A stretch of DNA of 64,000 bases from Motilibacter deserti (GTDB taxonomy: Bacteria; Actinomycetota; Actinomycetes; Motilibacterales; Motilibacteraceae): positions 62,001-126,000 of the forward strand of contig NZ_JAANNP010000006.1 of NCBI RefSeq assembly GCF_011250635.1. Reading direction: 5' to 3'. Shown in pieces: positions 1 through 12,697 of the stretch (its first letter is position 1; every line of letters starts with the position of its first letter). The notes beneath the pieces are model-generated. The model had not been told where the DNA came from and ran no database searches. It saw only the letters and a list, made by a program, of their open reading frames with translations. The position numbers and the translations under genes were made by a program.

Positions 1-1236
1 GTCGCGGAGAACATCTGGCTCGGCCACGAGCCCTCGACGGTCGGCTTCTCCAAGCGCGGCTCCGAGCGGTCCACCGCACGCGAGATGCTCAAGCGGCTCG
101 GCCACCCCGAGATCCCCGTCAACCGTGAGGTCGGCCGGCTGTCGGCCGCGGGCCAGCAGATCGTGAGCATGGCGCGGGCGCTGTCCCACGACGCCAAGCT
201 CATCATCATGGACGAGCCGTCCGCCGTGCTCGACCAGGACGAGGTGGAGAACCTCTTCCGCACCATCCGTGACCTCAGCGCCTCGGGCGTGGCGGTGGTC
301 TACATCTCCCACCGTCTCGAGGAGATCCGCGAGATCGGCGACCGGATCACGGTCATCAAGGACGGCCGCACCGTCGCGGTCAACCTGCCGGCCAAGACGA
401 CGCCGACCGACGACGTGGTCCGCCTCATGACCGGCCGCTCGGTGGAGTACGCCTTCCCGCCGCGCCAGACCGGCACGCCGCTGGCCGAGCGCAAGGAGCT
501 CCTCCGCGTCGAGGGCCTGACGCGCAAGGGCGAGTTCAACAACGTCTCGTTCTCCGTGCGGGCCGGTGAGATCGTCGGCCTCGCGGGGCTCGTGGGCGCC
601 GGGCGCTCGGAGATCCTCGAGACGATCTACGGCGCGCGCGCCCAGGACAGCGGCACGGTCGTCTTCGACGGCAAGACGCTGCGCCCGGGCAACGTCCCGG
701 CGGCGGTGAAGCTCGGTATGGGCCTAGCGCCCGAGGAGCGCAAGAGCCAGGCGCTCTTCCTCGACCACCCCGTGGCGCACAACATCTCCGCGGCGACGCT
801 CAAGCGCTACTCGAAGCTCGGCTGGCTCGACCGCCGGCGTGAGCTCAAGGACGCCGCCGAGCAGTCGACCGCGCTCGAGCTGCGCCCGGCAGGCCCGATG
901 CGCCCCGTGCGCAACCTGTCCGGTGGCAACCAGCAGAAGGCCGTCGTCGGCCGCTGGCTGCTCAAGGGCTGCCGCCTGCTGCTGCTCGACGAGCCCACCC
1001 GAGGCGTCGACATCGGCGCCCGCGCCGAGCTCTACGCTCTGGTCCGCCGTCTCGCCGACTCCGGCGTCGGCGTCCTCCTCGTCTCCAGCGAGGTCCCCGA
1101 GGTCCTGGGCCTCGCGGACCGCGTGCTGGTCATCCGCGAGGGCCACATCGTGCGCGAGGCACCCGCGACCGAGCTCGACGAACACAAGGTGCTCGACCTT
1201 GTCATGGCCGGAACTTTGGAAGGAGCCCTCAAGTGA
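1..1236 (+). CDS. Sugar ABC transporter ATP-binding protein, RbsA/XylG-like (5' truncated)
   Basis: Energises uptake of a monosaccharide or cyclitol across the membrane together with the permease and binding protein that follow. The frame is open from base 1 (VAENIWLGHEP, a stretch normally found after the first Walker A), so the beginning of the first ATPase domain lies outside the window. The first domain shows a signature-like LSAAGQQ and Walker B LIIMDEP. The second has the degenerate P-loop GLVGAGRSE typical of the C-terminal half of RbsA-type proteins, the signature LSGGNQQK and Walker B LLLLDEP. Such proteins are about 500 residues, so roughly 90-100 are missing. Its stop overlaps the GTG of the permease (GTGA at 1233-1236), so the two are translationally coupled. 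The substrate cannot be read from the ATPase. Confidence 0.93.
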   Translation, partial: VAENIWLGHEPSTVGFSKRGSERSTAREMLKRLGHPEIPVNREVGRLSAAGQQIVSMARALSHDAKLIIMDEPSAVLDQDEVENLFRTIRDLSASGVAVVYISHRLEEIREIGDRITVIKDGRTVAVNLPAKTTPTDDVVRLMTGRSVEYAFPPRQTGTPLAERKELLRVEGLTRKGEFNNVSFSVRAGEIVGLAGLVGAGRSEILETIYGARAQDSGTVVFDGKTLRPGNVPAAVKLGMGLAPEERKSQALFLDHPVAHNISAATLKRYSKLGWLDRRRELKDAAEQSTALELRPAGPMRPVRNLSGGNQQKAVVGRWLLKGCRLLLLDEPTRGVDIGARAELYALVRRLADSGVGVLLVSSEVPEVLGLADRVLVIREGHIVREAPATELDEHKVLDLVMAGTLEGALK

Positions 1237-2306
1237 GGGAGCAACTGACCCCCCGCAACGAAGACCTCGGCGCTGCTGCCGGGGCGCCGGTCGCGGACGA
1301 GCACGCCCGCATCGAGCGTGCGGCTGCCGAGTCGACTGCTCCCAAGTCTGCGTTCGCCCGCCTCGCGGACAGCAGCGCCGGGCGCAACAGCGGCCTGGTG
1401 CTCGCGCTCGTGGTCATCTGCGCCATCGGCCTGATCACCAAGGGCGACACCTTCGCGACCACGGACAACGTCTGGACGATCCTGCGCCTCGCCGCGGTCG
1501 GCGGCGTCATCAGCGTCGGCATGACGTTCGTCATCATCGCCGGCGGCATCGACCTCTCGGTGGGCGCCATCGTCGCGCTCGCCTCGGTGTGGGCGACGAC
1601 CACGGGCACCCAGGACATCGGCACCTTCGGCATCATCTTCACCTCCATCGTCGTGGCCACGGCCTGCGGCGTCATCAACGGCGTCCTCATCGCCTACGGC
1701 AAGGTCGTCGCGTTCATCGCGACGCTCGCGGGCCTGGCGACCTACCGTGGTCTGGCCGAGAACCTCTCCGACCGCAAGACGCAGTCGATCGACACTCCGT
1801 CGGGCTTCCTCGACTTCTTCGGCGCCGAGCCCGGCGGCATCCCGGTCCTCGTCATCATGTTCGCCGTCGTGGCGGTGCTCGGCTGGCTGCTGCTGAACCG
1901 CACGACCTTCGGCCGGCGCACGTTCGCGATCGGCGGCAACCCGGAGGCCGCGCGCCTCGCCGGCATCAACGTCAAGCGCCAGACGGTCATGCTCTACGCG
2001 CTGCTCGGGTTCCTCTGCGGCATCGCGACCATCATGATCCTGGCTCGCACCTCCGCCGGCACGAGCACGCACGGCAACCTGTACGAGCTCGACGCCATCG
2101 CTGCCGTCGTCATCGGCGGGACGCTGCTCAGCGGCGGCCGCGGCACCATCGTGGGCACGGTGTTCGGCGTCCTGATCTTCCAGACGCTCAACAACATCTT
2201 CACCCTCAACAACCTCACGACCTCGACGCAGGCCGTGGCGAAGGGCCTCATCATCGTGGCGGCGGTGCTCCTGCAGCAGCGCGTCGCGAAGACGTCCCGC
2301 AGTTAG
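1233..2306 (+). CDS. Sugar ABC transporter permease, RbsC-like
   Basis: Membrane channel subunit of the sugar importer, 357 residues. A hydrophilic, probably cytoplasmic N-terminal tail of about 50 residues precedes a series of hydrophobic segments beginning near residue 53. The family stretches GGIDLSVG (following TFVIIAGG) and NPEAARLAGI are both visible and mark the BPD_transp_2/RbsC family. The GTG start overlaps the stop of the ATPase gene by four bases, the normal arrangement for these importers. The long charged N-terminus is usual in actinobacterial members. The specificity (ribose, xylose, inositol and others all occur in this family) is not determinable. The neighbouring Gfo/Idh/MocA dehydrogenases and sugar isomerase favour a polyol, inositol or aldose. 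Confidence 0.93.
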   Translation: MREQLTPRNEDLGAAAGAPVADEHARIERAAAESTAPKSAFARLADSSAGRNSGLVLALVVICAIGLITKGDTFATTDNVWTILRLAAVGGVISVGMTFVIIAGGIDLSVGAIVALASVWATTTGTQDIGTFGIIFTSIVVATACGVINGVLIAYGKVVAFIATLAGLATYRGLAENLSDRKTQSIDTPSGFLDFFGAEPGGIPVLVIMFAVVAVLGWLLLNRTTFGRRTFAIGGNPEAARLAGINVKRQTVMLYALLGFLCGIATIMILARTSAGTSTHGNLYELDAIAAVVIGGTLLSGGRGTIVGTVFGVLIFQTLNNIFTLNNLTTSTQAVAKGLIIVAAVLLQQRVAKTSRS

Positions 2307-2350
2307 CGCACCACCCGCACCACCCACTCAACGATCCTGCACATCGAAGC

Positions 2351-2364
2351 CCAGGGATCCCTGG
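2351..2364. repeat. 14-bp perfect palindrome between permease and binding-protein genes
   Basis: CCAGGGATCCCTGG lies in the 108-base gap between the permease and binding-protein genes. Such intercistronic hairpins upstream of binding-protein genes often act as RNA-stabilising or processing elements that raise binding-protein expression. That role is inference. It could also simply be a chance palindrome. Confidence 0.4.
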
Positions 2365-2414
2365 ACGCCTTCCAGCACAGCCCATTTCGCGGCTCTCACA
2401 GGAGAGAGAACATC

Positions 2415-3485
2415 ATGAGCAAGGACGAGCAGATCAGCCGTGCCCTCGGGCGTCGCGGCTTCCTCTTCGGGGGCGCCGCGATCGGGGCCGGCGTGGTCCT
2501 CAGCGGCTGCACCAACAGCTCGGAGGAGGACGACGACGTCGCGGCGAACGTCGCGGCTCCCGCGGCCAGCGGCTCCGAGGCGCCCGGCGCCCCGGTCACC
2601 ATCGGCTTCTCGGCGCCCGCTGCCGACCACGGCTGGATGGCGGCCATCACGACCTACGCCCGGGAGCAGGCCGAGGCGTACCCCGAGGTCACGTTCAACG
2701 CCACCGAGGGCACCAACGACGTCAACCTGCAGATCTCGCAGGTCGAGACGCTCATCAACGACAAGGTCGACGTCCTCGTCATCCTCCCGCACGACGGCAA
2801 GGCGCTCACCGAGATCGGCCGCAAGGCGACCCAGGCCGGCATCCCGGTCATCAACCTGGACCGCGAGTTCTCGGACGCGCTGGCCTACCGCCTGTTCATC
2901 GCCGGCAACAACTACGGCATGGGTGTCGCGGCGGGCAACTTCATCGCCGAGCAGATGAAGGCCAAGGGCGTCAGCAACCCGGTCATCGGCGAGATCCCCG
3001 GCATCGACTCGCTCCCGCTGACCCAGGAGCGCAGCCAGGGCTTCAAGGACGCACTGACCGCGGCCGGCCTGAAGCTCGGCCCGCGCGTGCCGGCCGAGTT
3101 CACCGTCGAGTCCGGCGAGCGCGCCGCCTCGAACCTCCTGCAGGCCGCCCCGAAGCTCGACGCCGTGTGGAACCACGACGACGACCAGGGCATCGGTGTG
3201 CTCCAGGCGATCAAGAACGCCGGCCGTGACGAGTTCATCATGGTCGGTGGCGCGGGCTCCGGCACCGCCGTCAAGGACATCGCGGCCGACAACACGGTCC
3301 TCAAGGCCACGGTGACCTACAGCCCCTCGATGTCGGCGTCGGCCATCCGCCTGGCGCGCAACATCGGCCAGGGCAAGGGCATGAGCGACCTGGTCGAGCA
3401 CGAGGTCCCCTCGCGGATCATCCTCACCTCCGAGACGATCACCAAGGAGAACGCGGCCGACTACAAGTTCGGCTTCGCCTCCTGA
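2415..3485 (+). CDS. Sugar-binding lipoprotein of the ABC importer (Peripla_BP_4/RbsB-like)
   Basis: Extracellular solute-binding protein, 356 residues, that captures the sugar and delivers it to the permease. The N-terminus has twin arginines (Arg13-Arg14, RRGFLF), a hydrophobic stretch and a lipobox LSGC with Cys32, so it is probably exported by Tat and lipid-anchored. The mature part starts with an acidic linker (SSEEDDD) and then shows the two-lobe type I periplasmic binding fold (TIGFSAPAADHGW; the lobe 1 repeat ending VDVLVILPHDG; NLDREFSD). The ATG has a good ribosome site (GGAGAG, 2401-2406). Third gene of the importer operon and the last before a strong hairpin. The binding-pocket residues do not reveal the ligand. 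Confidence 0.92.
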   Translation: MSKDEQISRALGRRGFLFGGAAIGAGVVLSGCTNSSEEDDDVAANVAAPAASGSEAPGAPVTIGFSAPAADHGWMAAITTYAREQAEAYPEVTFNATEGTNDVNLQISQVETLINDKVDVLVILPHDGKALTEIGRKATQAGIPVINLDREFSDALAYRLFIAGNNYGMGVAAGNFIAEQMKAKGVSNPVIGEIPGIDSLPLTQERSQGFKDALTAAGLKLGPRVPAEFTVESGERAASNLLQAAPKLDAVWNHDDDQGIGVLQAIKNAGRDEFIMVGGAGSGTAVKDIAADNTVLKATVTYSPSMSASAIRLARNIGQGKGMSDLVEHEVPSRIILTSETITKENAADYKFGFAS

Positions 3486-3506
3486 CCCTTCAGGGCGACG
3501 AGAGCC

Positions 3507-3616
3507 TCGGTGGCTCTCGCCCTCCTGACCGGTAGGCCCTGCGCGGGCCGGGCCAGCACCGGCGCTGGCCCGGCCCCGCAGTCCTCCCGGCTGTCGGTGG
3601 CTCCCGTCCTCCCGAC
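3507..3616 (+). repeat. Pair of 23-bp direct repeats
   Basis: TCGGTGGCTCTCGCCCTCC.. at 3507-3529 recurs at 3594-3616 with three transitions in 23 bases. The copies flank the terminator hairpin downstream of the binding-protein gene. The first copy can also pair with the GAGAGCC just before it. Function unknown. Confidence 0.55.
3545..3576 (+). terminator. Hairpin after ABC importer operon
   Basis: A perfect 13-bp stem (GGGCCGGGCCAGC at 3545-3557 with 3564-3576) and a 6-base loop lie 60 bases after the binding-protein stop. No T-run follows, as is common in high-GC actinobacteria. Likely intrinsic terminator or attenuating hairpin before the Gfo/Idh gene. Confidence 0.6.
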
Positions 3617-3693
3617 AGGCACGACCCCTCGGCAGCGCGCCTGTCGCAGGGCTTCCTCGAACCGCTGAACACAGTGCAAGAACGGACCGGTCA

Positions 3694-4884
3694 GTGACGA
3701 TCGCAGGCAAGCCGACTATCGGCGTCGGCATGGTGGGCTACGCCTTCATGGGGGCGACGCACTCGCACGCGTGGCGCACCGTCCCACGGGTCTTCGACCT
3801 CCCCCTCGTCCCGCGCATGGTGGCCCTCGCCGGGCGCAACGAGGCCAACGCCCGCGCAGCGGCGGACCGGCTCGGGTGGGAGTCGGTCGAGACGGACTGG
3901 CGTGCGCTCGTGGCGCGCGACGACGTTGGGCTGGTCGACATCGTGACCCCCGGCGACAGCCATGCGGAGATCGCGATCGCGGCGCTCGAGGCCGGCAAGC
4001 ACGTCCTCTGCGAGAAGCCGCTCGCCAACACGGTCGCCGAGGCCGAGGCGATGACCGCCGCCGCCGAGCGCGCCGCCGAGCGCGGGGTCCGCGCCATGGT
4101 CGGCTTCAGCTACCGGCGCGTCCCCGCCATCACCTTCGCGCGCGACCTGGTGCAGTCGGGCCGGCTGGGGACGATCCACCACGTGCGCGCCCAGTACCTC
4201 CAGGACTGGATCGTCGACCCCGAGTTCCCGCTGGTGTGGCGCCTGCAGAAGGAGCACGCCGGGTCCGGCTCGCTCGGAGACCTCGGCGCACACATCATCG
4301 ACATGGCGCAGTTCATCACCGGTGACCGCATCACCGGCGTCTCCGGACTGACCGAGACCTTCGTCAAGGAGCGCCCGCTGCCGACCGCGTCCAGCGGGTT
4401 GAGCGCCTCGGGCAGCAGTGAGCGGGGACAGGTCACCGTGGACGACGCCGCGCTGTTCCTGGCCCGGTTCGGGGGCGGGGCCGTGGGCTCGTTCGAAGCG
4501 ACCCGTTTCGCCTCCGGCCGCAAGAACGCCATGCGCATCGAGATCAACGGCTCGGCCGGCAGCATCGCCTTCGACTTCGAGTCGATGAACGAGCTGCAGT
4601 TCCACGACCACTCGATCGACGCGGACAGCGCCGGGTTCCGCCGGATCCTCGTGACCGAGCCGACGCATCCCTACATGGACGCGTGGTGGCCGCCGGGTCA
4701 CATCATCGGCTACGAGCACACCTTCATCCACCAGGCCCGCGACCTGCTGACCGACATCGCCACGTCCCAGGCGCCCGCGCCGTCGTTCGCCGACGGGCTG
4801 CAGGTGCAGCGCGTGCTCGAGGCGGTCGAGCGCAGTGCGTCCGGCGACAGCTCCTGGACCGCGGTGGACGCCGCGGCAGGCTGA
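3694..4884 (+). CDS. Gfo/Idh/MocA family oxidoreductase (first copy)
   Basis: NAD(P)-dependent dehydrogenase of 396 residues acting on a sugar, polyol or inositol-type substrate in the cytoplasm. The N-terminal Rossmann domain shows a GxGxxG-like motif (GVGMVGYAFMG, about residues 10-20). The family signature CEKPLANT follows near residues 105-112; its lysine is part of the catalytic EKP motif. The C-terminal half has the typical beta-sheet dimer domain with GDLGAHIIDMAQF carrying the conserved Asp/His. The start is GTG at 3694. It lies between the importer genes and the ebo-type cluster, so it probably oxidises the imported compound. Inositol dehydrogenase-like activity is possible, but sequence alone does not separate inositol from glucose-type substrates. 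Confidence 0.88.
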   Translation: MTIAGKPTIGVGMVGYAFMGATHSHAWRTVPRVFDLPLVPRMVALAGRNEANARAAADRLGWESVETDWRALVARDDVGLVDIVTPGDSHAEIAIAALEAGKHVLCEKPLANTVAEAEAMTAAAERAAERGVRAMVGFSYRRVPAITFARDLVQSGRLGTIHHVRAQYLQDWIVDPEFPLVWRLQKEHAGSGSLGDLGAHIIDMAQFITGDRITGVSGLTETFVKERPLPTASSGLSASGSSERGQVTVDDAALFLARFGGGAVGSFEATRFASGRKNAMRIEINGSAGSIAFDFESMNELQFHDHSIDADSAGFRRILVTEPTHPYMDAWWPPGHIIGYEHTFIHQARDLLTDIATSQAPAPSFADGLQVQRVLEAVERSASGDSSWTAVDAAAG

Positions 4885-5228: not shown

Positions 5229-5315
5229 ATGACGCTCAACAGCGCTCCAGGCAGAACACGGGGAATCTGTCCGGGAGCTTCGAGGACTACGGCAGTTCCG
5301 AGGAGGACGCGGTGA
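5229..5315 (+). CDS. Possible 28-residue leader peptide overlapping the cyclase start
   Basis: An ATG at 5229 with a good ribosome site (AAGGGAG, seven bases upstream) opens a 28-codon frame. Its TGA (5313-5315) overlaps the GTG start of the cyclase gene (5312-5314). The product (MTLNSAPGRTRG...) is basic and has no recognisable domain. The overlap would couple translation of the cyclase to this leader. It may equally be a chance short frame, because the cyclase has its own AGGAGG site. Confidence 0.35.
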   Translation: MTLNSAPGRTRGICPGASRTTAVPRRTR

Positions 5316-6463
5316 GCACCGGACTATGGCTTGTGGGCGCGCGAGGGTCGGTCGCGACGACTGCGGTCGTCGGCGCCCTTGCGGTGCGGGCAGGCCTGGC
5401 CGCACGCAATGGATTGGTGACGGAGAGCCCTGCCTTCGCCGAGGCCGGGCTGCCCCCGCTCGAGGGGTTCGTCTTCGGCGGCCACGACGTGACGGCCATG
5501 CCGCTGGCGAAGCGGGCCGAGGCGTTGGGCCAGGCCGGGGTCGTCCCGCGCCACCTGCCCGCCGTGCTGGCGGACGAGCTGGACCAGGTGGACGCCCGCA
5601 TCCGGCCCGGCGGCCGGCAGGAGGGCGAGACCCAGGCCGAGCACGCGGCCCGGCTGGCCGCGGACATCCGCTCCTTCGCGCAGGCGAGCGGCGTCGATCG
5701 CGTCGTCGTGGTCAACGTCGCCTCGACGGAGCCCCCGGCCGAGCCGCACCCGGCCCACGCGTCCCTCGACGCGCTCGAGACCGCCCTCGAGCAGGGCGCG
5801 ACCGTGCTGCCGACCAGCTCGCTCTACGCCTACGCGGCGCTGCAGGCCGGGTCCGCCTTCGTCGACTTCACCCCCTCGACCGGCGCGCGGCTCCCCGCTT
5901 TGGACGAGCTGGCCCGCCGTGAGCGCCTCCCCTACGCCGGCAGCGACGGCAAGACCGGTGAGACGCTGGTCAAGTCCACGCTCGCACCGATGTTCCAGAC
6001 CCGCGAGCTGCACGTGCAGTCCTGGGTCGGGATGAACATCCTCGGCGGGGGTGACGGTGCCACCCTGGCCGACCCGCACGCCAGCCTCAGCAAGACCCGC
6101 AGCAAGGGCCGCAGCGTCGCCGAGACCCTGGGCTACGAGGTAGTTGCCCCAGTCCACATCGACAACGTCCCGGACATGGGCGAGTGGAAGACGGCCTGGG
6201 ACCACATCGCGTTCGAGGGCTTCCTCGGCGTCCGCATGACGATGCAGTTCACCTGGCAGGGCTGCGACTCCGCGCTCGCCGCACCGCTCGTCCTCGACCT
6301 CGCCCGGCTGGCCGCGCGGGCCGCGCAGGCGGGGGAGTCCGGCCCGCTGCCGGCGCTCGGGTTCTTCTTCAAGGACCCGGTGGCCTCCAGCGAGCACCGG
6401 CTCGCGACGCAGTACGACGTGCTGGTGGCATGGGCCCGGGACCTGGCCGGGCGGTCGGCGTGA
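5312..6463 (+). CDS. Inositol-3-phosphate-synthase-like sugar phosphate cyclase in an ebo-type cluster
   Basis: 383 residues, similar in plan to myo-inositol-1-phosphate synthases, which turn glucose 6-phosphate into inositol phosphate using NAD. The N-terminus LVGARGSVATT is the nucleotide-binding glycine-rich loop. The conserved catalytic/tetramerisation region is seen near residues 210-250 (GSDGKTGETLVKS, then NILGGGDGATLADP, matching the family's G-N-N-D-G-x-N-L block). The frame is open upstream for about 160 codons. The GTG at 5312 is chosen because it has AGGAGG five bases before it and gives the family N-terminus. Its TGA overlaps the start of eboC (GTGA). In described ebo clusters this slot holds EboD, a 3-dehydroquinate-synthase-like cyclase, so this looks like a replacement by an unrelated cyclase fold. 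Its product need not be myo-inositol phosphate. Confidence 0.85.
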   Translation: MSTGLWLVGARGSVATTAVVGALAVRAGLAARNGLVTESPAFAEAGLPPLEGFVFGGHDVTAMPLAKRAEALGQAGVVPRHLPAVLADELDQVDARIRPGGRQEGETQAEHAARLAADIRSFAQASGVDRVVVVNVASTEPPAEPHPAHASLDALETALEQGATVLPTSSLYAYAALQAGSAFVDFTPSTGARLPALDELARRERLPYAGSDGKTGETLVKSTLAPMFQTRELHVQSWVGMNILGGGDGATLADPHASLSKTRSKGRSVAETLGYEVVAPVHIDNVPDMGEWKTAWDHIAFEGFLGVRMTMQFTWQGCDSALAAPLVLDLARLAARAAQAGESGPLPALGFFFKDPVASSEHRLATQYDVLVAWARDLAGRSA

Positions 6464-7338
6464 CCTCCCTCCGCGACCTCGCGGAGCTGGTCCGGCTGCC
6501 GGCCGCGCTGACGGTGCCGGGCGACTCGGTCGCCGGGGCCGCGGCCGCGGGATGGCCACTGGGCCGCCGCACGGCGGCGCTGCCGGTCGCGTCGGCCTGC
6601 CTCTACTGGGCGGGCATGGCCCTCAACGACTGGTCCGACCGCGAGCTGGACGCGGTCGAGCGGCCCGAGCGGCCGATCCCGTCCGGACGGGTCAGCCCGC
6701 GACAGGCCCTCGCCGTGGCGACCGGGCTCACCGGCCTCGGGCTCGCGGCCGCCGCCTGCGCGGGCCGGCCAGCCCTTCGTGTGGCAGTGCCGCTCGCCGC
6801 GACCGTGTGGGCCTACGACGTGCTGCTCAAGCCCACCCCGGTGGGGCCGCTCGCGATGGGGACGGCGCGCGCCCTCGACGTCCTGCTCGGCGCGAGCGGG
6901 CAGCTGCGTGCCGCCCTCCCGGCCGCGCTGAGCGTCGGCGGTCACACCCTCGCCGTCACCCAGCTGAGCCGTGACGAGGTGAGCGGCGCGAAGTCGGCGG
7001 CCGTACCCGCGGCCGCGCTCGCGTCCACGGCCCTCGTCGCGGTCGCTGCTGTCGCCGGCCCGGTGGCCGGCGACCGACCGCGCACCCGCGCGCTCCACCG
7101 CCTCGCGGCCGCTGCCGCTGCCGGCACCTACGCCGTGACCGTCGGACGGCGCCAGCTCGACGCCGTGCAGGACCCCTCCGCGGCAACGGTCCGCCGTGCG
7201 GTGGGTGCCGGCATCCACGGCATGATGCCGTTGCAGGCGGCGTTCGCGGCGCGCAACGGCTCCGTCGTGGCCGCGATCCCGGTCGCGGCGGTGTTCCCGC
7301 TGGCCCGCGCTCTCTCGAGGAAGGTGTCACCGACATGA
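6460..7338 (+). CDS. eboC: UbiA-type prenyltransferase, EboC-like
   Basis: An integral membrane protein of 292 residues. The first Asp-rich motif of the UbiA family, NDWSDRELD (NDxxDxxxD, about residues 55-63), is intact and binds the Mg-prenyl-diphosphate. It is followed by AVERPERPIPSG, characteristic of the EboC branch. The second Asp-rich motif is weak: only SRDEVSG stands at the expected place, near residue 175. UbiA enzymes transfer a prenyl group to an aromatic or polar acceptor, and one branch uses phosphoribose diphosphate. GTG start overlapping the cyclase stop; its own stop overlaps the eboA ATG (ATGA), so the genes are translationally coupled. Acceptor unknown; the product of the preceding cyclase is an attractive guess. 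Confidence 0.85.
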   Translation: MTSLRDLAELVRLPAALTVPGDSVAGAAAAGWPLGRRTAALPVASACLYWAGMALNDWSDRELDAVERPERPIPSGRVSPRQALAVATGLTGLGLAAAACAGRPALRVAVPLAATVWAYDVLLKPTPVGPLAMGTARALDVLLGASGQLRAALPAALSVGGHTLAVTQLSRDEVSGAKSAAVPAAALASTALVAVAAVAGPVAGDRPRTRALHRLAAAAAAGTYAVTVGRRQLDAVQDPSAATVRRAVGAGIHGMMPLQAAFAARNGSVVAAIPVAAVFPLARALSRKVSPT

Positions 7339-8153
7339 GCAGCCCAGCAAGCGACTCCGCCAGCACCTCCCCGAGCACCACCTACCCGAGCACCACCACT
7401 GCGCCGACCGAGGCCGGCGTGGCCGGCGCGCTCGAGGCCGTCCTCTCCGACCAGCAGGCCGGCTGGCTGGCAGACGCGCGGGCACGCGTCTCGGCGGCCC
7501 CCACGCAGGTGGGCGCGGTCTTCCCCGCCGTCCGGCGCTCCTGCGGCGCGGGCTTGCTCCCGTCGCCCGACGCCACGCTCAGCGGATGGACGGTCGACGA
7601 CGCCGCCCGCGCCCTGCTCCTGGTCGACGTCGCCCGCGCCGGGCTGCCGCCGGACGACCTGGCGCGCGAGGTGCAGGACCTCTACCGCTACGGCGACGCC
7701 GCGGAGCGGCGGGCGGTGCTGCGCGCGCTGCCCCTGCTCGACGCGGTCCTCGGCGACCGCGCGCTGCCGGTGGTGACGGACGCGCTGCGTACCAACGACA
7801 CCCGCATCGTCGGCGCGGCCGTCGGCCCCTACGCGGCGTCGCACCTGGACGCGGACGCGTTCCGGCAGGCCGTCCTCAAGTGCGTCTTCGTCGGAGTCCC
7901 GCTGGCCTCGTTCAGCGGCCTGAGCGAGCGCGCCGACGCGGAGCTGGCCCGGATGCTCGCGGACTTCGCGCACGAGCGGATCGCCGCCGGGCGCGAGGTC
8001 CCCGCGGACATCTGGCTCGTCCTCGACCGGTTCCCGGAGGCGGTCGAGACCGCCGGGCTGCGCGAGGAGCTCTCGTCCCCCGTCCCCGAACGCCGCGCCG
8101 CGGCGCAGCGTGCACTGGCCGGCCACGACGCCGCCGTCGCACAGGAAGGCTGA
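7335..8153 (+). CDS. eboA: EboA domain protein
   Basis: 272 residues, predicted cytoplasmic, all-helical, with no catalytic motif I can recognise. After a Ser/Thr-rich N-terminal tail (about residues 1-25) the protein shows blocks that I associate with the EboA family: LYRYGDAAERRAVLRAL, ALRTNDTRIVGAAVGPYAA and LKCVFVGVPL. The ATG overlaps the eboC stop. EboA belongs to the ebo gene set needed in cyanobacteria to deliver a scytonemin precursor to the periplasm; its individual biochemical role is unknown. The HEAT-like helical look suggests a scaffold, which is inference only. The low-complexity N-terminus is unusual and the true start could be a little further in. Confidence 0.82.
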   Translation: MSSPASDSASTSPSTTYPSTTTAPTEAGVAGALEAVLSDQQAGWLADARARVSAAPTQVGAVFPAVRRSCGAGLLPSPDATLSGWTVDDAARALLLVDVARAGLPPDDLAREVQDLYRYGDAAERRAVLRALPLLDAVLGDRALPVVTDALRTNDTRIVGAAVGPYAASHLDADAFRQAVLKCVFVGVPLASFSGLSERADAELARMLADFAHERIAAGREVPADIWLVLDRFPEAVETAGLREELSSPVPERRAAAQRALAGHDAAVAQEG

Positions 8154-8155
8154 CC

Positions 8156-9022
8156 GTGCGCATCTTCGACCCGCACATCCACATGACCTCGCGCACCACG
8201 GACGACTACGAGGCGATGTACGCCGCCGGCGTCCGTGCCCTCGTCGAGCCGGCGTTCTGGCTGGGGCAGCCGCGCAGCAACGTCGGCTCGTTCGTCGACT
8301 ACTTCGACTCGTTGCTCGGGTGGGAGCCCTTCCGGGCCGCCCAGTTCGGCATCGAGCACTTCTGCACCATCGGGCTCAACCCGAAGGAGGCCAACGACCC
8401 GCGCTGCGTCGAGGTCCTGGACCTGCTGCCGCGGTTCCTGGCCAAGGACCGCGTCGTCGCGGTGGGCGAGCTGGGCTACGACTCGATGACCAAGGAGGAG
8501 GACGAGGCCTTCTCCCGCCAGCTCGAGCTCGCGCTCGAGCACGACCTGCCGGTGCTCGTGCACACGCCGCACCGCGACAAGGCCGCCGGGACGCGGCGCA
8601 CGCTCGACGTCATCAAGGAGGCCGGGGTCCCGGCGGAGCGGGTCATCATCGACCACCTCAACGAGATGACGGTCGCGATGGTGCGCGACGCCGGGTGCTG
8701 GGCCGCGTTCTCGGTCTACCCCGACACGAAGATGGACGAGCACCGGATGGTGCGGATCCTGCAGGAGCACGGGCTCGAGCGCATGCTGGTCAACTCAGCG
8801 GCCGACTGGGGCCGCAGCGACCCGCTCAAGACGCTGAAGACGGGCCGCGCGATGCTCGAGGCCGGCTTCAGCGACGACGACGTCGACCGCGTGCTCTGGC
8901 TCAACCCCGTCGAGTTCTACGCCCAGAGCGGGCGTCTCACGCTCGAGGACGAGAGCATCGAGACCGGCGCCTCGGCGACCTTCCAAGGCAGCTCGGTGCT
9001 GCGCGGAGCGCGGGACAACTAG
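8156..9022 (+). CDS. eboB: TatD-family metal-dependent hydrolase, EboB-like
   Basis: 288 residues, TIM-barrel amidohydrolase fold. The metal ligands of the TatD family are all visible: DPHIH (His7, His9), Glu in VGELGYD (about 104), His in VLVHTPH (about 135), His in IIDHLNE (about 166) and Asp in SAADWG (about 216). So it should be an active two-metal hydrolase. True TatD enzymes are 3'-5' exonucleases, but the ebo paralogue is assumed to act on a small molecule. The GTG at 8156 follows the eboA stop by two bases and gives the conserved N-terminus MRIFDPHIH; the longer open frame upstream is in the shadow of eboA. Fourth gene of the coupled run. Confidence 0.85.
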   Translation: MRIFDPHIHMTSRTTDDYEAMYAAGVRALVEPAFWLGQPRSNVGSFVDYFDSLLGWEPFRAAQFGIEHFCTIGLNPKEANDPRCVEVLDLLPRFLAKDRVVAVGELGYDSMTKEEDEAFSRQLELALEHDLPVLVHTPHRDKAAGTRRTLDVIKEAGVPAERVIIDHLNEMTVAMVRDAGCWAAFSVYPDTKMDEHRMVRILQEHGLERMLVNSAADWGRSDPLKTLKTGRAMLEAGFSDDDVDRVLWLNPVEFYAQSGRLTLEDESIETGASATFQGSSVLRGARDN

Positions 9023-9026
9023 CGCG

Positions 9027-10208
9027 ATGCGATTCCGGCATCCCGATGGGCAGACGGTCCATCTGGCCTACTGCACCAACGTCCATCCGGCCGAGGACCT
9101 CGACGGGGTCCTCCGCCAGCTGGATGCCTACGCCGGGCCGGTGCGCGAGACGCTCGGCACGGACCGGCTCGGCCTCGGGCTCTGGCTGGCCCGCGAGGTG
9201 GCGACGACGCTGCGCGCGGACGACGCTGCCCTCGCCCGGCTTCGCGGCGAGCTGGTTGCGCGTGGGCTCGAGGTCGTCACCCTGAACGGCTTCCCCTACG
9301 CCGGCTTCGGCCAGGAGGTCGTGAAGCTGCGCGTCTACTCCCCGGACTGGTCCGAGCCCGAGCGGCTGCGCTACACCGCCGACCTGGCCTGGCTGCTCGC
9401 GCGGCTGCTTCCCGACGACGTCGCCCGTGGAAGCATCTCCACGCTTCCGCTGGCCTGGCGAGACCCGTGGGACGAGCGGTCCCAGCAGGCGGCCCGTGGC
9501 CAGCTCGACGCCCTGGCCGCCGAGCTCGCCGACGTCGAGGCGGCGACGGGCAAGGTGGTGCGGGTCGCGCTCGAGCCCGAGCCGGGGTGCGTGGTGGAGA
9601 CCGGGGCGCAGGTGAGCGCGTTCCTCGCCGGGCTCGACACCCGCCGGATCGGCCTCTGTCTGGACGCCTGCCACCTGGCCGTCGCGTTCGAGACCGCCGA
9701 GGAGCTGGTCGAGCGGCTCGACGAGCTCGGTATGCCCGTGGTGAAGCTGCAGGCGTCCGCAGCGCTGCACGCCGACGACCCCCGCGACCCGGCGACCCGC
9801 GCGGCGCTCGCGTCGTTCGTCGAGCCGCGCTACCTGCACCAGACGCGGGAGCGCGTCGGGGCCTGGCTCGACGGCCGTGACGACCTCGACGCGGCGCTCG
9901 CCGCGGACGGGTCGGCGGCCGGGCTTGCCGGGGACGCCCCCTGGCGGGTGCACTTCCACGTACCGCTGCACGCCGACCCCGAGCCGCCGCTGCGCTCTAC
10001 CCGCGAGCAGCTGCAGGACACGCTGCGCACGCTGTTCGCCGGCTCGGCCGCCCGCACGGATACGGTCGAGGTCGAGACCTACACCTGGCACGTCCTGCCC
10101 GAGCAGCTGCGCCCCCAAGGGGATGCGGGGCTCGTGGCCGGGATCGCCGCCGAGCTCGCGTGGGCCCGGGACAACCTGCTGGCTCTCGGCCTCCGGGAGC
10201 TGACATGA
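9027..10208 (+). CDS. eboE: EboE, xylose-isomerase-like TIM-barrel metabolite traffic protein
   Basis: 393 residues. The N-terminus HLAYCTNVHPAEDLDG and the segment RLGLGLWLA are typical of EboE proteins. The core is a xylose-isomerase-like (AP_endonuc_2) TIM barrel with probable metal ligands in VALEPEPG (Glu), CLDACHLAV (Asp, His) and PVVKLQAS. The start lies four bases after the eboB stop. In the cyanobacterial ebo cluster EboE is needed for precursor traffic to the periplasm; the substrate and reaction are not known. Isomerisation or epimerisation of a cyclitol or sugar unit would fit the fold and the cyclase upstream, but this is inference. Confidence 0.88.
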   Translation: MRFRHPDGQTVHLAYCTNVHPAEDLDGVLRQLDAYAGPVRETLGTDRLGLGLWLAREVATTLRADDAALARLRGELVARGLEVVTLNGFPYAGFGQEVVKLRVYSPDWSEPERLRYTADLAWLLARLLPDDVARGSISTLPLAWRDPWDERSQQAARGQLDALAAELADVEAATGKVVRVALEPEPGCVVETGAQVSAFLAGLDTRRIGLCLDACHLAVAFETAEELVERLDELGMPVVKLQASAALHADDPRDPATRAALASFVEPRYLHQTRERVGAWLDGRDDLDAALAADGSAAGLAGDAPWRVHFHVPLHADPEPPLRSTREQLQDTLRTLFAGSAARTDTVEVETYTWHVLPEQLRPQGDAGLVAGIAAELAWARDNLLALGLRELT

Positions 10209-10217
10209 GGAGATCGC

Positions 10218-11624
10218 ATGACTGAGGGCCGCAACCCCGTGCTCCTGCTCGACGTCGTGGGCCTGACGCCGAAGCTGCTCGCGCACATGCCCAACCTGCA
10301 GGCCGTCGGGTCCACGGGCTTCACCGCGCCGCTCGGGACGGTGCTGCCGGCGGTGACGTGCTCGGCCCAGTCCACGTTCCTCACCGGCCTCATGCCGCGC
10401 GATCACGGCGTGGTGGGCAACGGCTGGTACTTCCGGGACCTCGGCGAGGTCTTCCTGTGGCGCCAGCACAACAAGCTGGTGCAGGGGGAGAAGGTCTGGG
10501 AGGCCGCACGCCGCGAGGCCGCCGGATCGACGTCGGCCAACGTCTGCTGGTGGTACGCCATGGGCGCGTCGACGGACCTCACCGTCACCCCGCGGCCGGT
10601 CTACCACGCCGACGGGCGCAAGTCGCCCGACTGCTACACCTACCCGCCGCAGCTGCACGACGAGCTGACCGAGGAGCTCGGGACCTTCCCGCTCTTCCAG
10701 TACTGGGGCCCCACCGCCTCGATCGCCTCCTCCCGCTGGATCATCGAGGCCACGCGCCGCATCCTCGCCCGCAACCGCCCCGACCTGACCATGGCCTACG
10801 TGCCGCACCTCGACTACGACCTGCAACGCTTCGGCCCCGACGGGCCCGAGGCCGTCGCGGCGGCGCGCGAGGTCGACGGCGCGTTGAAGCCGCTGCTCGA
10901 CGACGCGCGCGGGCGCGGCATCACGGTCGTCGCGCTGAGCGAGTACGGCATCACCGCCGCCCGCCGCCCGGTGGACGTCAACCGGCTGCTGCGCCGCGAG
11001 GGCCTGCTCAACGTCTACGTGCAGGACGGGTACGAGCTGCTCGACCCCTGGACCTCGCGGGCCTTCGCCGTGGCGGACCACCAGGTCGCCCACGTCTACG
11101 TCGCCGACGAGTCCGACCTGCCGCGGGTGCGCGCGATGCTGGAGAGCCTGCCCGGGGTCGCCGAGGTGCTCGACGAGGCGGGCAAGGCGAAGTACGGCCT
11201 GGACCACGAGCGCTCCGGCGAGCTGGTGCTCGTGGCCGAGCCGGACGCGTGGTTCACCTACTACTACTGGCTCGACGACGACCGGGCGCCGGACTTCGCC
11301 CGCACCGTCGAGATCCACAAGAAGCCCGGCTACGACCCGGCCGAGCTCTTCCTCAACCCGGAGGACAAGCTGGCCAAGGCGAAGGCCGGGGCCGCGCTCG
11401 TCCGCAAGAAGGTCGGCCTGCGCTACTCGATGCAGGTCATCCCGCTGGACCCGTCGCCGGTGAAGGGCAGCCACGGACGGCTGCCCGACAGCGACGCCGA
11501 CGGTCCCGTCCTCGTCTGCTCCGACGCGAGCGTCGGCGTGGACCGGGTGGGGGCCACCGAGGTGAAGGACCTGCTGCTGCGTCTGGCCCGCAACGGCCGA
11601 CCGCGCCCGGCAGCAGCCGGCTGA
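10218..11624 (+). CDS. eboF: EboF-like nucleotide pyrophosphatase/phosphodiesterase (alkaline phosphatase superfamily)
   Basis: 468 residues, no signal peptide, so probably cytoplasmic. The fold marks of the NPP/alkaline phosphatase superfamily are visible: Asp12 in LLLDVVG, the nucleophile Thr in [10 protein letters not shown] (about residue 46), the Asp/His ligands in [12 protein letters not shown] (about 197) and a late His in [10 protein letters not shown] (about 366). The usual SDHG metal motif reads SEYG here (about residue 241), an Asp-to-Glu and His-to-Tyr change that would alter the second metal site. The ATG has a strong AGGAGA site overlapping the end of eboE. Likely hydrolyses a phosphodiester or phosphoanhydride in the ebo product; the substrate is unknown. 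Confidence 0.85.
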
Positions 11625-11686: not shown

Positions 11687-12697
11687 ATGGCACGACCGAT
11701 CACGCTCTTCACCGGCCAGTGGGCCGACCTGCCCTTCGAGGAGGTCGCCCGCCGGGCGAGCGAGTGGGGCTACGAAGGCCTCGAGATCGCTTGCTGGGGC
11801 GACCACTTCGACGTGCTCAAGGCCGTGGAGGACGACGGCTACGTCGAGGAGAAGAAGGCGCTGCTGGAGAAGTACAACCTCAGCGTCTACGCGATCTCGA
11901 ACCACCTCAACGGCCAGGCCGTCTGCGACAACCCGATCGACGAGCGGCACAAGGGCATCGTCAACCCGCGCGTCTGGGGTGACGGCAACCCCGAGGGTGT
12001 ACGCCAGCGCGCCGCCGAGGAGATGAAGCTGACCGCCCGCGCGGCGGCCAAGCTCGGCGTCAAGACCGTCGTCGGCTTCACCGGCTCCAGCATCTGGCAC
12101 TATGTCGCGATGTTCCCGCCGGTGCCGCCGCACATGATCGAGGCGGGCTACCAGGACTTCGCCGACCGTTGGAACCCGATCCTGGACGTGTTCGACGAGG
12201 TGGGCGTCCGCTTCGCCCACGAGGTGCACCCGAGCGAGATCGCGTACGACTACTGGACGACCGTGCGCACGCTGGAGGCCATCGGCCACCGCGAGGCGTT
12301 CGGGCTCAACTTCGACCCGAGCCACTTCGTGTGGCAGGACCTCGACCCGGTCGGCTTCCTGTGGGACTTCAAGGACCGCATCTACCACGTGGACTGCAAG
12401 GAGTCGGTCAAGCAGTTGAACGGCCGCAACGGCCGGCTCGGCTCGCACCTGCCCTGGGCGGACCCGCGCCGTGGGTGGGACTTCGTGTCCACCGGTCACG
12501 GCGACGTCCCGTGGGAGGCGTGCTTCCGCATGCTGAACGCGATCGGCTACGACGGCCCGATCTCCATCGAGTGGGAGGACGCCGGCATGGACCGCCTGGT
12601 CGGCGGCCCGGACGCCCTCGCGTTCATCCAGAAGCTCGTGCAGATCGAGCCGCCGGCGGCGGCCTTCGACGCCGCCTTCAGCTCCTCCAGCGACTGA
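11687..12697 (+). CDS. Sugar phosphate isomerase/epimerase family protein
   Basis: 336 residues, xylose-isomerase-like TIM barrel (AP_endonuc_2; IolE/YcjR-type). Metal ligands expected for this fold appear in HEVHPSE (about residues 178-184), FDPSHF (about 210) and SIEWEDAG near the end. It follows eboF by 62 bases with its own GAGGAG site, and precedes twin hairpins, so it is probably the last gene of the ebo-type transcript. Proteins of this kind are frequent partners of Gfo/Idh/MocA dehydrogenases in actinobacterial sugar loci. There they interconvert oxidised sugars or inosose derivatives. The specific substrate is not deducible. Confidence 0.87.

Follow-up and report, generated by a model that had tools for sequence, protein, structure and literature searches.

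An ebo-type operon with an archaeal-type MIPS-like cyclase in the place of EboD

We analyzed a window of 64,000 nucleotides. Positions 5312–11624 were occupied by a tight operon on the + strand, encoding a cyclase resembling myo-inositol-1-phosphate synthase (MIPS), EboC, EboA, EboB, EboE, and EboF. The following features were identified:

5312..6463, + strand: MIPS-like cyclase of the archaeal (A. fulgidus) type, 383 aa; GTG start, preceded by GAGGAGG; PF07994 177 bits, 8e-52; PF01658 110 bits, 6e-32
6035..6373, + strand: MIPS active-site codons N242 (6035), K261 (6092), K265 (6104), K293 (6188), D319 (6266), and K354 (6371)
6460..7338, + strand: EboC, UbiA-type membrane prenyltransferase of the SCO3242 family; NF045897 396 bits, cut-off 260
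7335..7338, + strand: EboC/EboA junction ATGA; site of a TIM-barrel epimerase-like gene in other MIPS clusters, empty here
7335..8153, + strand: EboA; NF035938 172 bits, cut-off 50
8156..9022, + strand: EboB, TatD-type metal-dependent hydrolase; GTG start; TatD_DNase PF01026 2e-17
9027..10208, + strand: EboE, xylose-isomerase-like TIM barrel; NF035939 433 bits, cut-off 250
10218..11624, + strand: EboF, type I phosphodiesterase/nucleotide pyrophosphatase-like; PF01663 214 bits, 6e-63

All six open reading frames were free of internal stops, with a third-position GC of 91–98%, and the junctions were, in order, two 4-base overlaps and gaps of 2, 4, and 9 bases. The coordinates and family matches confirmed the presence of the six-gene operon described in the original prediction. 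EboB scored 519 bits against a profile built from homologous clusters. EboC was under the cut-off of the EboC model NF035940 (153 bits, cut-off 250) and was assigned via NF045897 and the cluster profile; homologues of EboA, EboB, EboC, EboE, and EboF were thus present in one operon, as in ebo clusters sensu PMC5133447. The MIPS gene adjoined EboC and was followed by A-B-E-F, the arrangement of the MIPS-type ebo cluster, a class defined in this analysis from 43 clusters.

To judge from its sequence, the window cyclase belongs to the archaeal type of MIPS and has its catalytic site intact. Both Pfam domains and the catalytic Lys, Asp, and Asn residues of the myo-inositol-1-phosphate synthase family were present, and the best PDB match was A. 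fulgidus MIPS (1u1i, 244 bits). Residues N242, K261, K265, K293, D319, and K354 aligned to N255, K274, K278, K306, D332, and K367 of the A. fulgidus enzyme, among which N255, K278, and K367 are the positions mutated to Ala in structures 3qw2, 3qvw, and 3qvx. None of the six varied among the MIPS of actinobacteria (42), planctomycetes (73), and haloarchaea (3). Beside the active site, the Asp or Asn of other MIPS (A. fulgidus D259) is replaced in actinobacterial ebo MIPS by an invariant Gly (G246 in the window enzyme), so that the product may be other than plain myo-inositol phosphate. A phylogeny of the cyclase against housekeeping Ino1, suggested with the original prediction, grouped the window MIPS with 41 further ebo MIPS from actinobacteria in a single clade (SH-aLRT 98), apart from the mycothiol type. 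The structure model of the window MIPS was weak in its second half (pLDDT 43–64, residues 211–320) and was excluded from fold searches.

EboD, the cyclase of the 3-dehydroquinate-synthase (DHQS) type, was encoded neither in the cluster nor elsewhere in the 98.7%-complete genome, where none of the PF01761 matches exceeded the cut-off of the EboD model NF004852. These matches were AroB (TIGR01357 354 bits, cut-off 305; NF004852 only 181 bits, cut-off 333) and a glycerol-1-phosphate-dehydrogenase-like gene. The original prediction had named an EboD elsewhere in the genome as evidence against it; the search for one came back empty. Tabulation of EboD against MIPS, also proposed there, gave MIPS as the cluster cyclase in 16 of the 18 other actinobacterial EboE-positive genomes, with EboD in one and a degenerate cluster in one. 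Gemmatirosa, three haloarchaea, and two planctomycetes likewise had ebo-type clusters with MIPS; EboD occupied the cyclase slot in proteobacterial and Deinococcus clusters. The Pseudomonadota survey contained EboE in just 3 of 349 genomes, too few to count. This comparison agrees with the predicted position of a MIPS-type cyclase in EboD's place, and shows the MIPS version to be the usual one in the sampled actinobacteria, with occurrences in archaea and further bacterial phyla.

Genes of the 132 EboE-positive Planctomycetota were mostly unlinked. MIPS alone was present in 79 of these genomes, a second DHQS alone in 38, both in 8, and neither in 7; among the apparent both-cyclase genomes, the MIPS was of the mycothiol type in two and of the Bacteroides type in another two, leaving four true overlaps. 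The number of genomes with neither cyclase type was also given as eight. MIPS and a second DHQS seldom coexisted, with a p-value inflated by shared ancestry, and on independent pairs only, the exclusion test in Planctomycetota was not significant (0 same/4–5 opposite, p about 0.06–0.125). MIPS was nonetheless found in 28 of 67 Planctomycetota lacking EboE.

The window MIPS scored 36 bits with the mycothiol-type Ino1 model TIGR03450 (curated cut-off 638), and a separate mycothiol-type ino1 was found on contig C177 (TIGR03450 319 bits over a 162-aa contig-edge fragment). The concern that the MIPS-like gene is merely the housekeeping ino1, voiced with the original prediction, was checked and proved unfounded: adjacency of that gene to ebo by chance was ruled out by the separate ino1 and by the cluster MIPS being one conserved clade. 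It is likewise very improbable that the cluster MIPS is a second ino1 for general inositol (mycothiol, phosphatidylinositol), with an accidental place in the operon. Actinobacteria need MIPS activity, and in two genomes, G318 (incomplete, 82%) and G268 (complete), the cluster MIPS is the sole one, which speaks for such a role; against it, of the 17 genomes in which the cluster is of the MIPS type, 15, including that of the window, encode another MIPS elsewhere, which is mostly of the mycothiol type. Moreover, the cluster MIPS, as a single clade, always adjoins EboC, and MIPS and a second DHQS nearly exclude each other even in Planctomycetota, with their mostly unlinked genes.

The usual actinobacterial ebo cluster contains a seventh gene, located between EboC and EboA, for a TIM-barrel epimerase-like protein. 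This gene accompanied MIPS in 43 of 43 clusters and was found in none of the 13 EboD clusters. In the window, the EboC/EboA junction was empty; the gene was located on another contig (C234:91312-92139, genome G000, 351 bits). Three further genomes of the family have likewise retained it away from the cluster. A TIM-barrel gene downstream of the operon (11735–12697) was considered as the missing seventh gene and rejected, scoring 36 bits with the TIM profile against 351 bits on C234. A neighbourhood search in EboE-positive planctomycetes revealed no TIM gene within about 8 kb of MIPS. The AlphaFold model of the TIM protein (L054 homologue, pLDDT 94) was nearest to D-tagatose/ketose 3-epimerase-like structures, with Z of 31.4 to 3wqo and 29.0 to UlaE; common fold and sequence profile point to a ketose 3-epimerase-like protein.

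Such a protein could act on a ketose phosphate ahead of the cyclase, as expected if the MIPS-like enzyme were a neofunctionalised cyclase, forming another ring size or acting on another hexose or heptose phosphate made by the TIM protein. The invariant Gly is consistent with this explanation, and a precedent within the family is Ari2 (PDB 6k96), named five-membered cyclitol phosphate synthase, which indicates that MIPS-family members are capable of other cyclisations. We regard neofunctionalisation as unlikely: all checked catalytic Lys, Asp, and Asn residues were kept, the closest relative of known structure is a true MIPS, and Ari2 belongs to the other, mycothiol-type side of the MIPS tree, on a long branch. 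The window MIPS scored 47 bits with Ari2, against 244 with A. fulgidus MIPS, and neither similarity nor the tree supported an Ari2-like five-membered cyclase in the window.

Analysis of EboC separated the two versions further. The tree of 64 rows had 2 changes of cyclase label versus a shuffled mean of 13.6; EboC of the sole EboD-type actinobacterium grouped with Deinococcus and proteobacteria, and EboC of MIPS-type planctomycetes grouped apart from that of EboD-type planctomycetes. The EboC lineage largely tracks cyclase type, across phyla too, a hint that the acceptor may differ. For the MIPS-linked prenyltransferase NCBI already has a model, NF045897, “SCO3242 family prenyltransferase”, which includes the window EboC. 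Relatives of EboC farnesylate quinoline acids in vitro, with no pointer to cyclitols (PMC9235831). Of the non-homologous replacement originally predicted, MIPS in the EboD slot is retained; the unrooted trees do not give its direction, and the MIPS version may be older than the EboD version. A one-gene swap is contradicted by the constant TIM partner and the mostly separate EboC lineage.

The same final cyclitol lipid may still result from both versions if MIPS and the TIM-barrel epimerase together equal EboD alone, one step being replaced by two. Genes C, A, B, E, and F are common to both, and the TIM gene tracks MIPS in haloarchaea as in Actinomycetota and Gemmatimonadota and is missing from EboD clusters. 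In addition, the EboE tree had 15–17 changes of cyclase type, suggesting swaps without loss of the pathway. The acceptor difference hinted at by EboC argues for distinct products, as do the carbon counts, which would not match for an EboD acting on a C7 sugar, the substrate proposed in PMC5133447. A shared lipid is therefore a serious possibility, though not the one that we expect.

Our preferred reading, which we consider probable, is that the window encodes a MIPS-type version of ebo, in which inositol-phosphate cyclisation leads to a prenylated cyclitol carrier or helper lipid. The substrate of the cyclase would be glucose 6-phosphate or a closely related hexose phosphate, which it would cyclise with NAD to an inositol phosphate, and the TIM barrel would adjust stereochemistry or oxidation state before or after cyclisation. 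EboC would prenylate the cyclitol in the membrane, and the head group or phosphate may be trimmed or modified by EboF, EboB, and EboE. The resulting prenylated cyclitol would assist or carry a metabolite while bound to the membrane, as proposed for cyanobacteria.

By established chemistry, DHQ-synthase-type enzymes release a cyclitol without phosphate, and MIPS keeps the phosphate; the cyclitol phosphate unit originally predicted for the ebo product was accordingly not confirmed. Nor was the predicted preservation of the chemical role, as the EboC split is compatible with differing products. The head group of the MIPS version is probably an inositol-type relative of the EboD-cluster head group, not demonstrably the same molecule.

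The comparisons point to two ancient ebo versions, EboD and MIPS. A broader proposal, which we hold at somewhat less than even confidence, is that the EboD version and the MIPS-plus-epimerase version are both ancient and cross-domain, and that the latter (haloarchaea, planctomycetes, Gemmatimonadota, Streptomyces) builds a never-isolated inositol-based prenylated carrier lipid and includes genes long assigned to the S. coelicolor CDA antibiotic cluster. The ebo cluster is found in many phyla and algal plastids, and export of the scytonemin monomer depends on it (PMC6282210). The MIPS version narrows ebo chemistry to a family of known reaction and readily available substrate, versus EboD with a guessed substrate, and its occurrence in genetically tractable Streptomyces could open the product to direct identification.

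The eboA-F clusters of cyanobacteria, Bacteroidetes, and eustigmatophyte plastids (PMC5133447, PMC6282210) likewise include an NAD-dependent sugar phosphate cyclase; theirs is EboD (PF01761), whereas that of the window is MIPS (PF07994/PF01658). The MIPS version also differs in its order, MIPS-C-(TIM)-A-B-E-F, in the extra TIM-barrel gene (unlinked in the window), and in an EboC of the SCO3242 family. The original prediction knew of no description of this variant, and none was found in the open-licence literature covered. A cyclitol product for ebo was already proposed in 2016 (PMC5133447).

A. fulgidus MIPS (1u1i) and mycothiol-type Ino1 (1gr0) are of the same family as the window MIPS and have the same catalytic residues; the window enzyme is nearer the archaeal form (only ~49 bits to the mycothiol type) and differs from both by its location in an ebo operon. 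Haloarchaeal plasmid clusters of Natronococcus, Halobaculum, and Halocatena contained adjoining genes for MIPS, an EboC-family UbiA protein, a TatD hydrolase, an EboF-like phosphodiesterase, and TIM barrels. In these three clusters no EboA and no EboE above the cut-off were found; two TIM-barrel epimerase-like genes were present instead. The MIPS version ties this haloarchaeal cluster to the ebo pathway. In S. coelicolor, SCO3242, which names the family of the window EboC, and SCO3243, annotated as myo-inositol phosphate synthase, are counted in the CDA cluster and treated there as ebo genes in neither case (PMC3610822). On these annotations, the MIPS version suggests that part of the CDA region does something else.

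The six genes of the predicted ebo operon were all found in their expected places, with an inositol-phosphate-synthase-type cyclase (MIPS) where described clusters carry EboD, the DHQ-synthase-type (DHQS) cyclase. From MIPS to EboF, the start codons were GTG, GTG, ATG, GTG, ATG, and ATG, and the junctions measured −4, −4, 2, 4, and 9 bases (negative values are overlaps). Family scores against profile models were far above chance:

85–4884: upstream RbsB-like sugar ABC transporter and levoglucosan-dehydrogenase-like oxidoreductase
5312–11624, + strand: ebo operon, comprising the six genes below
MIPS: PF07994, 177 bits; PF01658, 110 bits
EboC prenyltransferase: NF045897, 396 bits (cut-off 260)
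EboA: domain, 172 bits (cut-off 50)
EboB: TatD_DNase; 519 bits with a profile built from other clusters
EboE: 433 bits (cut-off 250)
EboF: PF01663, 214 bits
11735–15746: downstream IolE-like TIM barrel, IolG-like oxidoreductase, and ROK-type regulator

The flanking genes probably form a separate sugar catabolism locus. No match to EboB was found among Ebo-named models. Window EboC scored 153 bits with the NCBI EboC model, under its cut-off of 250; its home is a sister model named after Streptomyces coelicolor SCO3242.

The window genome (4.99 Mb, 98.7% complete) encoded a second MIPS on a different contig, a mycothiol-type fragment ended by the contig edge (TIGR03450, 319 bits); thus, the cluster MIPS is not the housekeeping ino1. 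Counting that of the window, 17 genomes had a MIPS-type cluster, and 15 of them encoded a further MIPS outside it. Neither of the two PF01761 matches in the genome was an EboD, so the other circumstance named as fatal to the original prediction did not arise either. One was AroB (TIGR01357, 354 bits, cut-off 305), scoring only 181 bits with NF004852, a model that captures EboD of three real ebo clusters at 552–563 bits (cut-off 333); the other was weak and glycerol-1-phosphate-dehydrogenase-like. The glycerol-1-phosphate-dehydrogenase-like gene of the window genome, unusual for a bacterium, lies at a contig end (G000:C165:71-565, locus L004).

The closest solved relative of the window MIPS was that of Archaeoglobus fulgidus (244 bits), with N242, K261, K265, K293, D319, and K354 aligned to N255, K274, K278, K306, D332, and K367, respectively. 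The deposited variants 3qw2, 3qvw, and 3qvx carry Ala at three of these six positions; the four lysines are catalytic in A. fulgidus. All six residues were invariant in 42 actinobacterial ebo MIPS, 3 of haloarchaea, and 73 of planctomycetes that have EboE. The actinobacterial ebo MIPS formed a single clade (SH-aLRT 98; 146 MIPS, quick search with one program) distinguished by one site beside the active-site Asn: Gly in 42/42 (G246 in the window, position 6047) versus mostly Asp or Asn in archaeal and planctomycete MIPS (D259 in A. fulgidus).

A search of 396 Actinomycetota genomes revealed EboE in 18 besides the window's, at 19 loci, 16 of which were MIPS-type. One locus was EboD-type and lacked EboA (genome G381), one was degenerate (G279), and one was a cyclase-less second cluster (G128, locus L027) 200 kb from a complete MIPS-type cluster. 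This cluster and one with no neighbouring cyclase in a Methylococcaceae genome in which no MIPS was seen (L079) had the order EboC-TIM-A-B-E-F or TIM-EboC-A-B-E-F. An independent named-genome set, which overlaps the survey in at least one species (identical EboC in L040 and L072), added 27 MIPS-type loci, all in Actinomycetota, and 9 EboD-type loci, all in Pseudomonadota. Solitary EboE homologues were seen on a Streptomyces sp. NBC_01244 plasmid (L386) and in Catellatospora and Rhizocola (L088–L096); one sits in a type II polyketide cluster, and they were possibly recruited into natural-product pathways.

MIPS clusters carried a further gene, the seventh, in the interval from EboC to EboA. Its product, a TIM barrel resembling xylose isomerase and roughly 276 residues long, bears the annotation "sugar phosphate isomerase/epimerase" in one Streptomyces plasmid. 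The gene was present in 43/43 MIPS loci versus 0/13 EboD loci (Fisher p 5e-13, uncorrected for kinship). The metal-site-like residues E155, E157, D186, H189, H224, and E253 were invariant, and a relative's AlphaFold model (pLDDT 94) was nearest to D-tagatose/ketose 3-epimerase-like structures (3wqo: Z 31.4, rmsd 2.0, 253 aligned), the Z scores of UlaE, YcjR, and others being only a few units away. The window operon lacked this gene, the EboC stop and EboA start overlapping as ATGA; a solitary 351-bit match was retained on another contig (C234), as expected of a needed partner. In three other genomes of the family the gene was likewise present, and no ebo gene lay within 1.5 kb of it. A 2016 survey described actinobacterial fusions of EboA to such a protein, drawing no link to a cyclase (PMC5133447).

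The EboC tree required only two cyclase-type changes for 64 sequences, against a shuffled mean of 13.6. The EboD-type actinobacterium clustered with Deinococcus and proteobacteria, and MIPS-type and EboD-type planctomycetes fell on opposite sides; two gammaproteobacterial EboD-type sequences lay on the MIPS side, and several branches were long, making details unsafe. The EboF and EboB trees required three changes each; all three trees are unrooted and do not give the order of age of the two versions. These patterns indicate, at the sequence level, that the versions differ by a module of cyclase, TIM barrel, and prenyltransferase lineage. The two versions may yield products with different head groups. 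EboD-type clusters were also read in Azospirillum, Deinococcus, and Roseivivax.

According to the published survey, ebo genes are unclustered in Planctomycetota and EboD is missing in two of three species (PMC5133447). Convincing EboE was found in 132/199 Planctomycetota genomes versus 19/396 in Actinomycetota and 3/349 in Pseudomonadota; EboE may be nearly a core trait of Planctomycetota. A DHQS adjoined EboE in 5/30 planctomycete loci; therefore, the second DHQS there can be EboD. The EboE-bearing genomes comprised 79 with MIPS only, 38 with a second DHQS only, 8 with both, and 7 with neither (Fisher p 3e-18), and the 67 genomes without EboE showed no such pattern (p 0.13), both values ignoring kinship. 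Typing of the MIPS sequences changed the counts to 69, 42, 4, and 8, plus 7 untyped. MIPS changed at least 15 times on the EboE tree; among differing independent pairs, the second DHQS was opposite in 4–5 and the same in 0 (p ~0.06–0.125), or 5 and 0 with other phyla added (median p 0.06). The exclusion is thus strong as a description, while the phylogenetically corrected test is only suggestive.

Gemmatirosa kalamazoonensis had EboE, EboB, EboF, EboC, MIPS, and the TIM gene inside about 7 kb. The haloarchaea Natronococcus, Halobaculum, and Halocatena carried MIPS, EboF-like (phosphodiesterase), EboB-like (TatD hydrolase), EboC (UbiA; NF035940, 178 bits in Halobaculum), and two TIM genes, on plasmids (L388, L389, L390); neither EboA nor full EboE was found in these clusters. 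Two planctomycetes without convincing EboE, G501 and G578, had this arrangement at loci L419 and L420, which read MIPS-EboB-TIM-EboC(-TIM-EboF); G578 is on a short contig, and in G501 a stop breaks the MIPS frame (L420). EboC adjoined MIPS in two further planctomycetes (G472, G584).

MIPS enzymes convert glucose 6-phosphate to inositol phosphate and retain the phosphate, which DHQ-synthase-type cyclases expel; UbiA enzymes transfer prenyl groups to acceptors within the membrane, and PF01663 enzymes hydrolyse phosphate esters. By this chemistry, the cluster MIPS would form inositol phosphate from glucose 6-phosphate with the phosphate kept, EboC (UbiA-type) would prenylate an acceptor in the membrane, and EboF (PF01663) would hydrolyse a phosphate ester. 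Our best guess, based on these families, is that the product would be a prenylated cyclitol, synthesised in the membrane. Gene content, the conserved catalytic site, and the co-occurrence and exclusion patterns are direct observations, and the chemistry is taken from the families. A complication is that relatives of EboC from Flavobacteria can farnesylate, in vitro, quinoline acids (PMC9235831).

Searches of open-licence papers gave no account of a MIPS-type ebo cluster, and the word "inositol" was absent from the main text of the ebo papers checked. The genes themselves have long been known, since NCBI curators keep a separate model for the actinobacterial prenyltransferase, and a published gene list of the S. 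coelicolor CDA cluster (PMC3610822) includes SCO3242 ("putative transferase") as well as SCO3243 ("myo-inositol phosphate synthase"). New here are the second cyclase type, its partner TIM gene, and the reach of both; the chief value of the MIPS-type version is that the unknown ebo product becomes approachable. Its cyclase, as represented by the window MIPS, is distant from both the mycothiol-type Ino1 of Mycobacterium tuberculosis (49 bits) and Ari2, a five-membered cyclitol synthase (47 bits).
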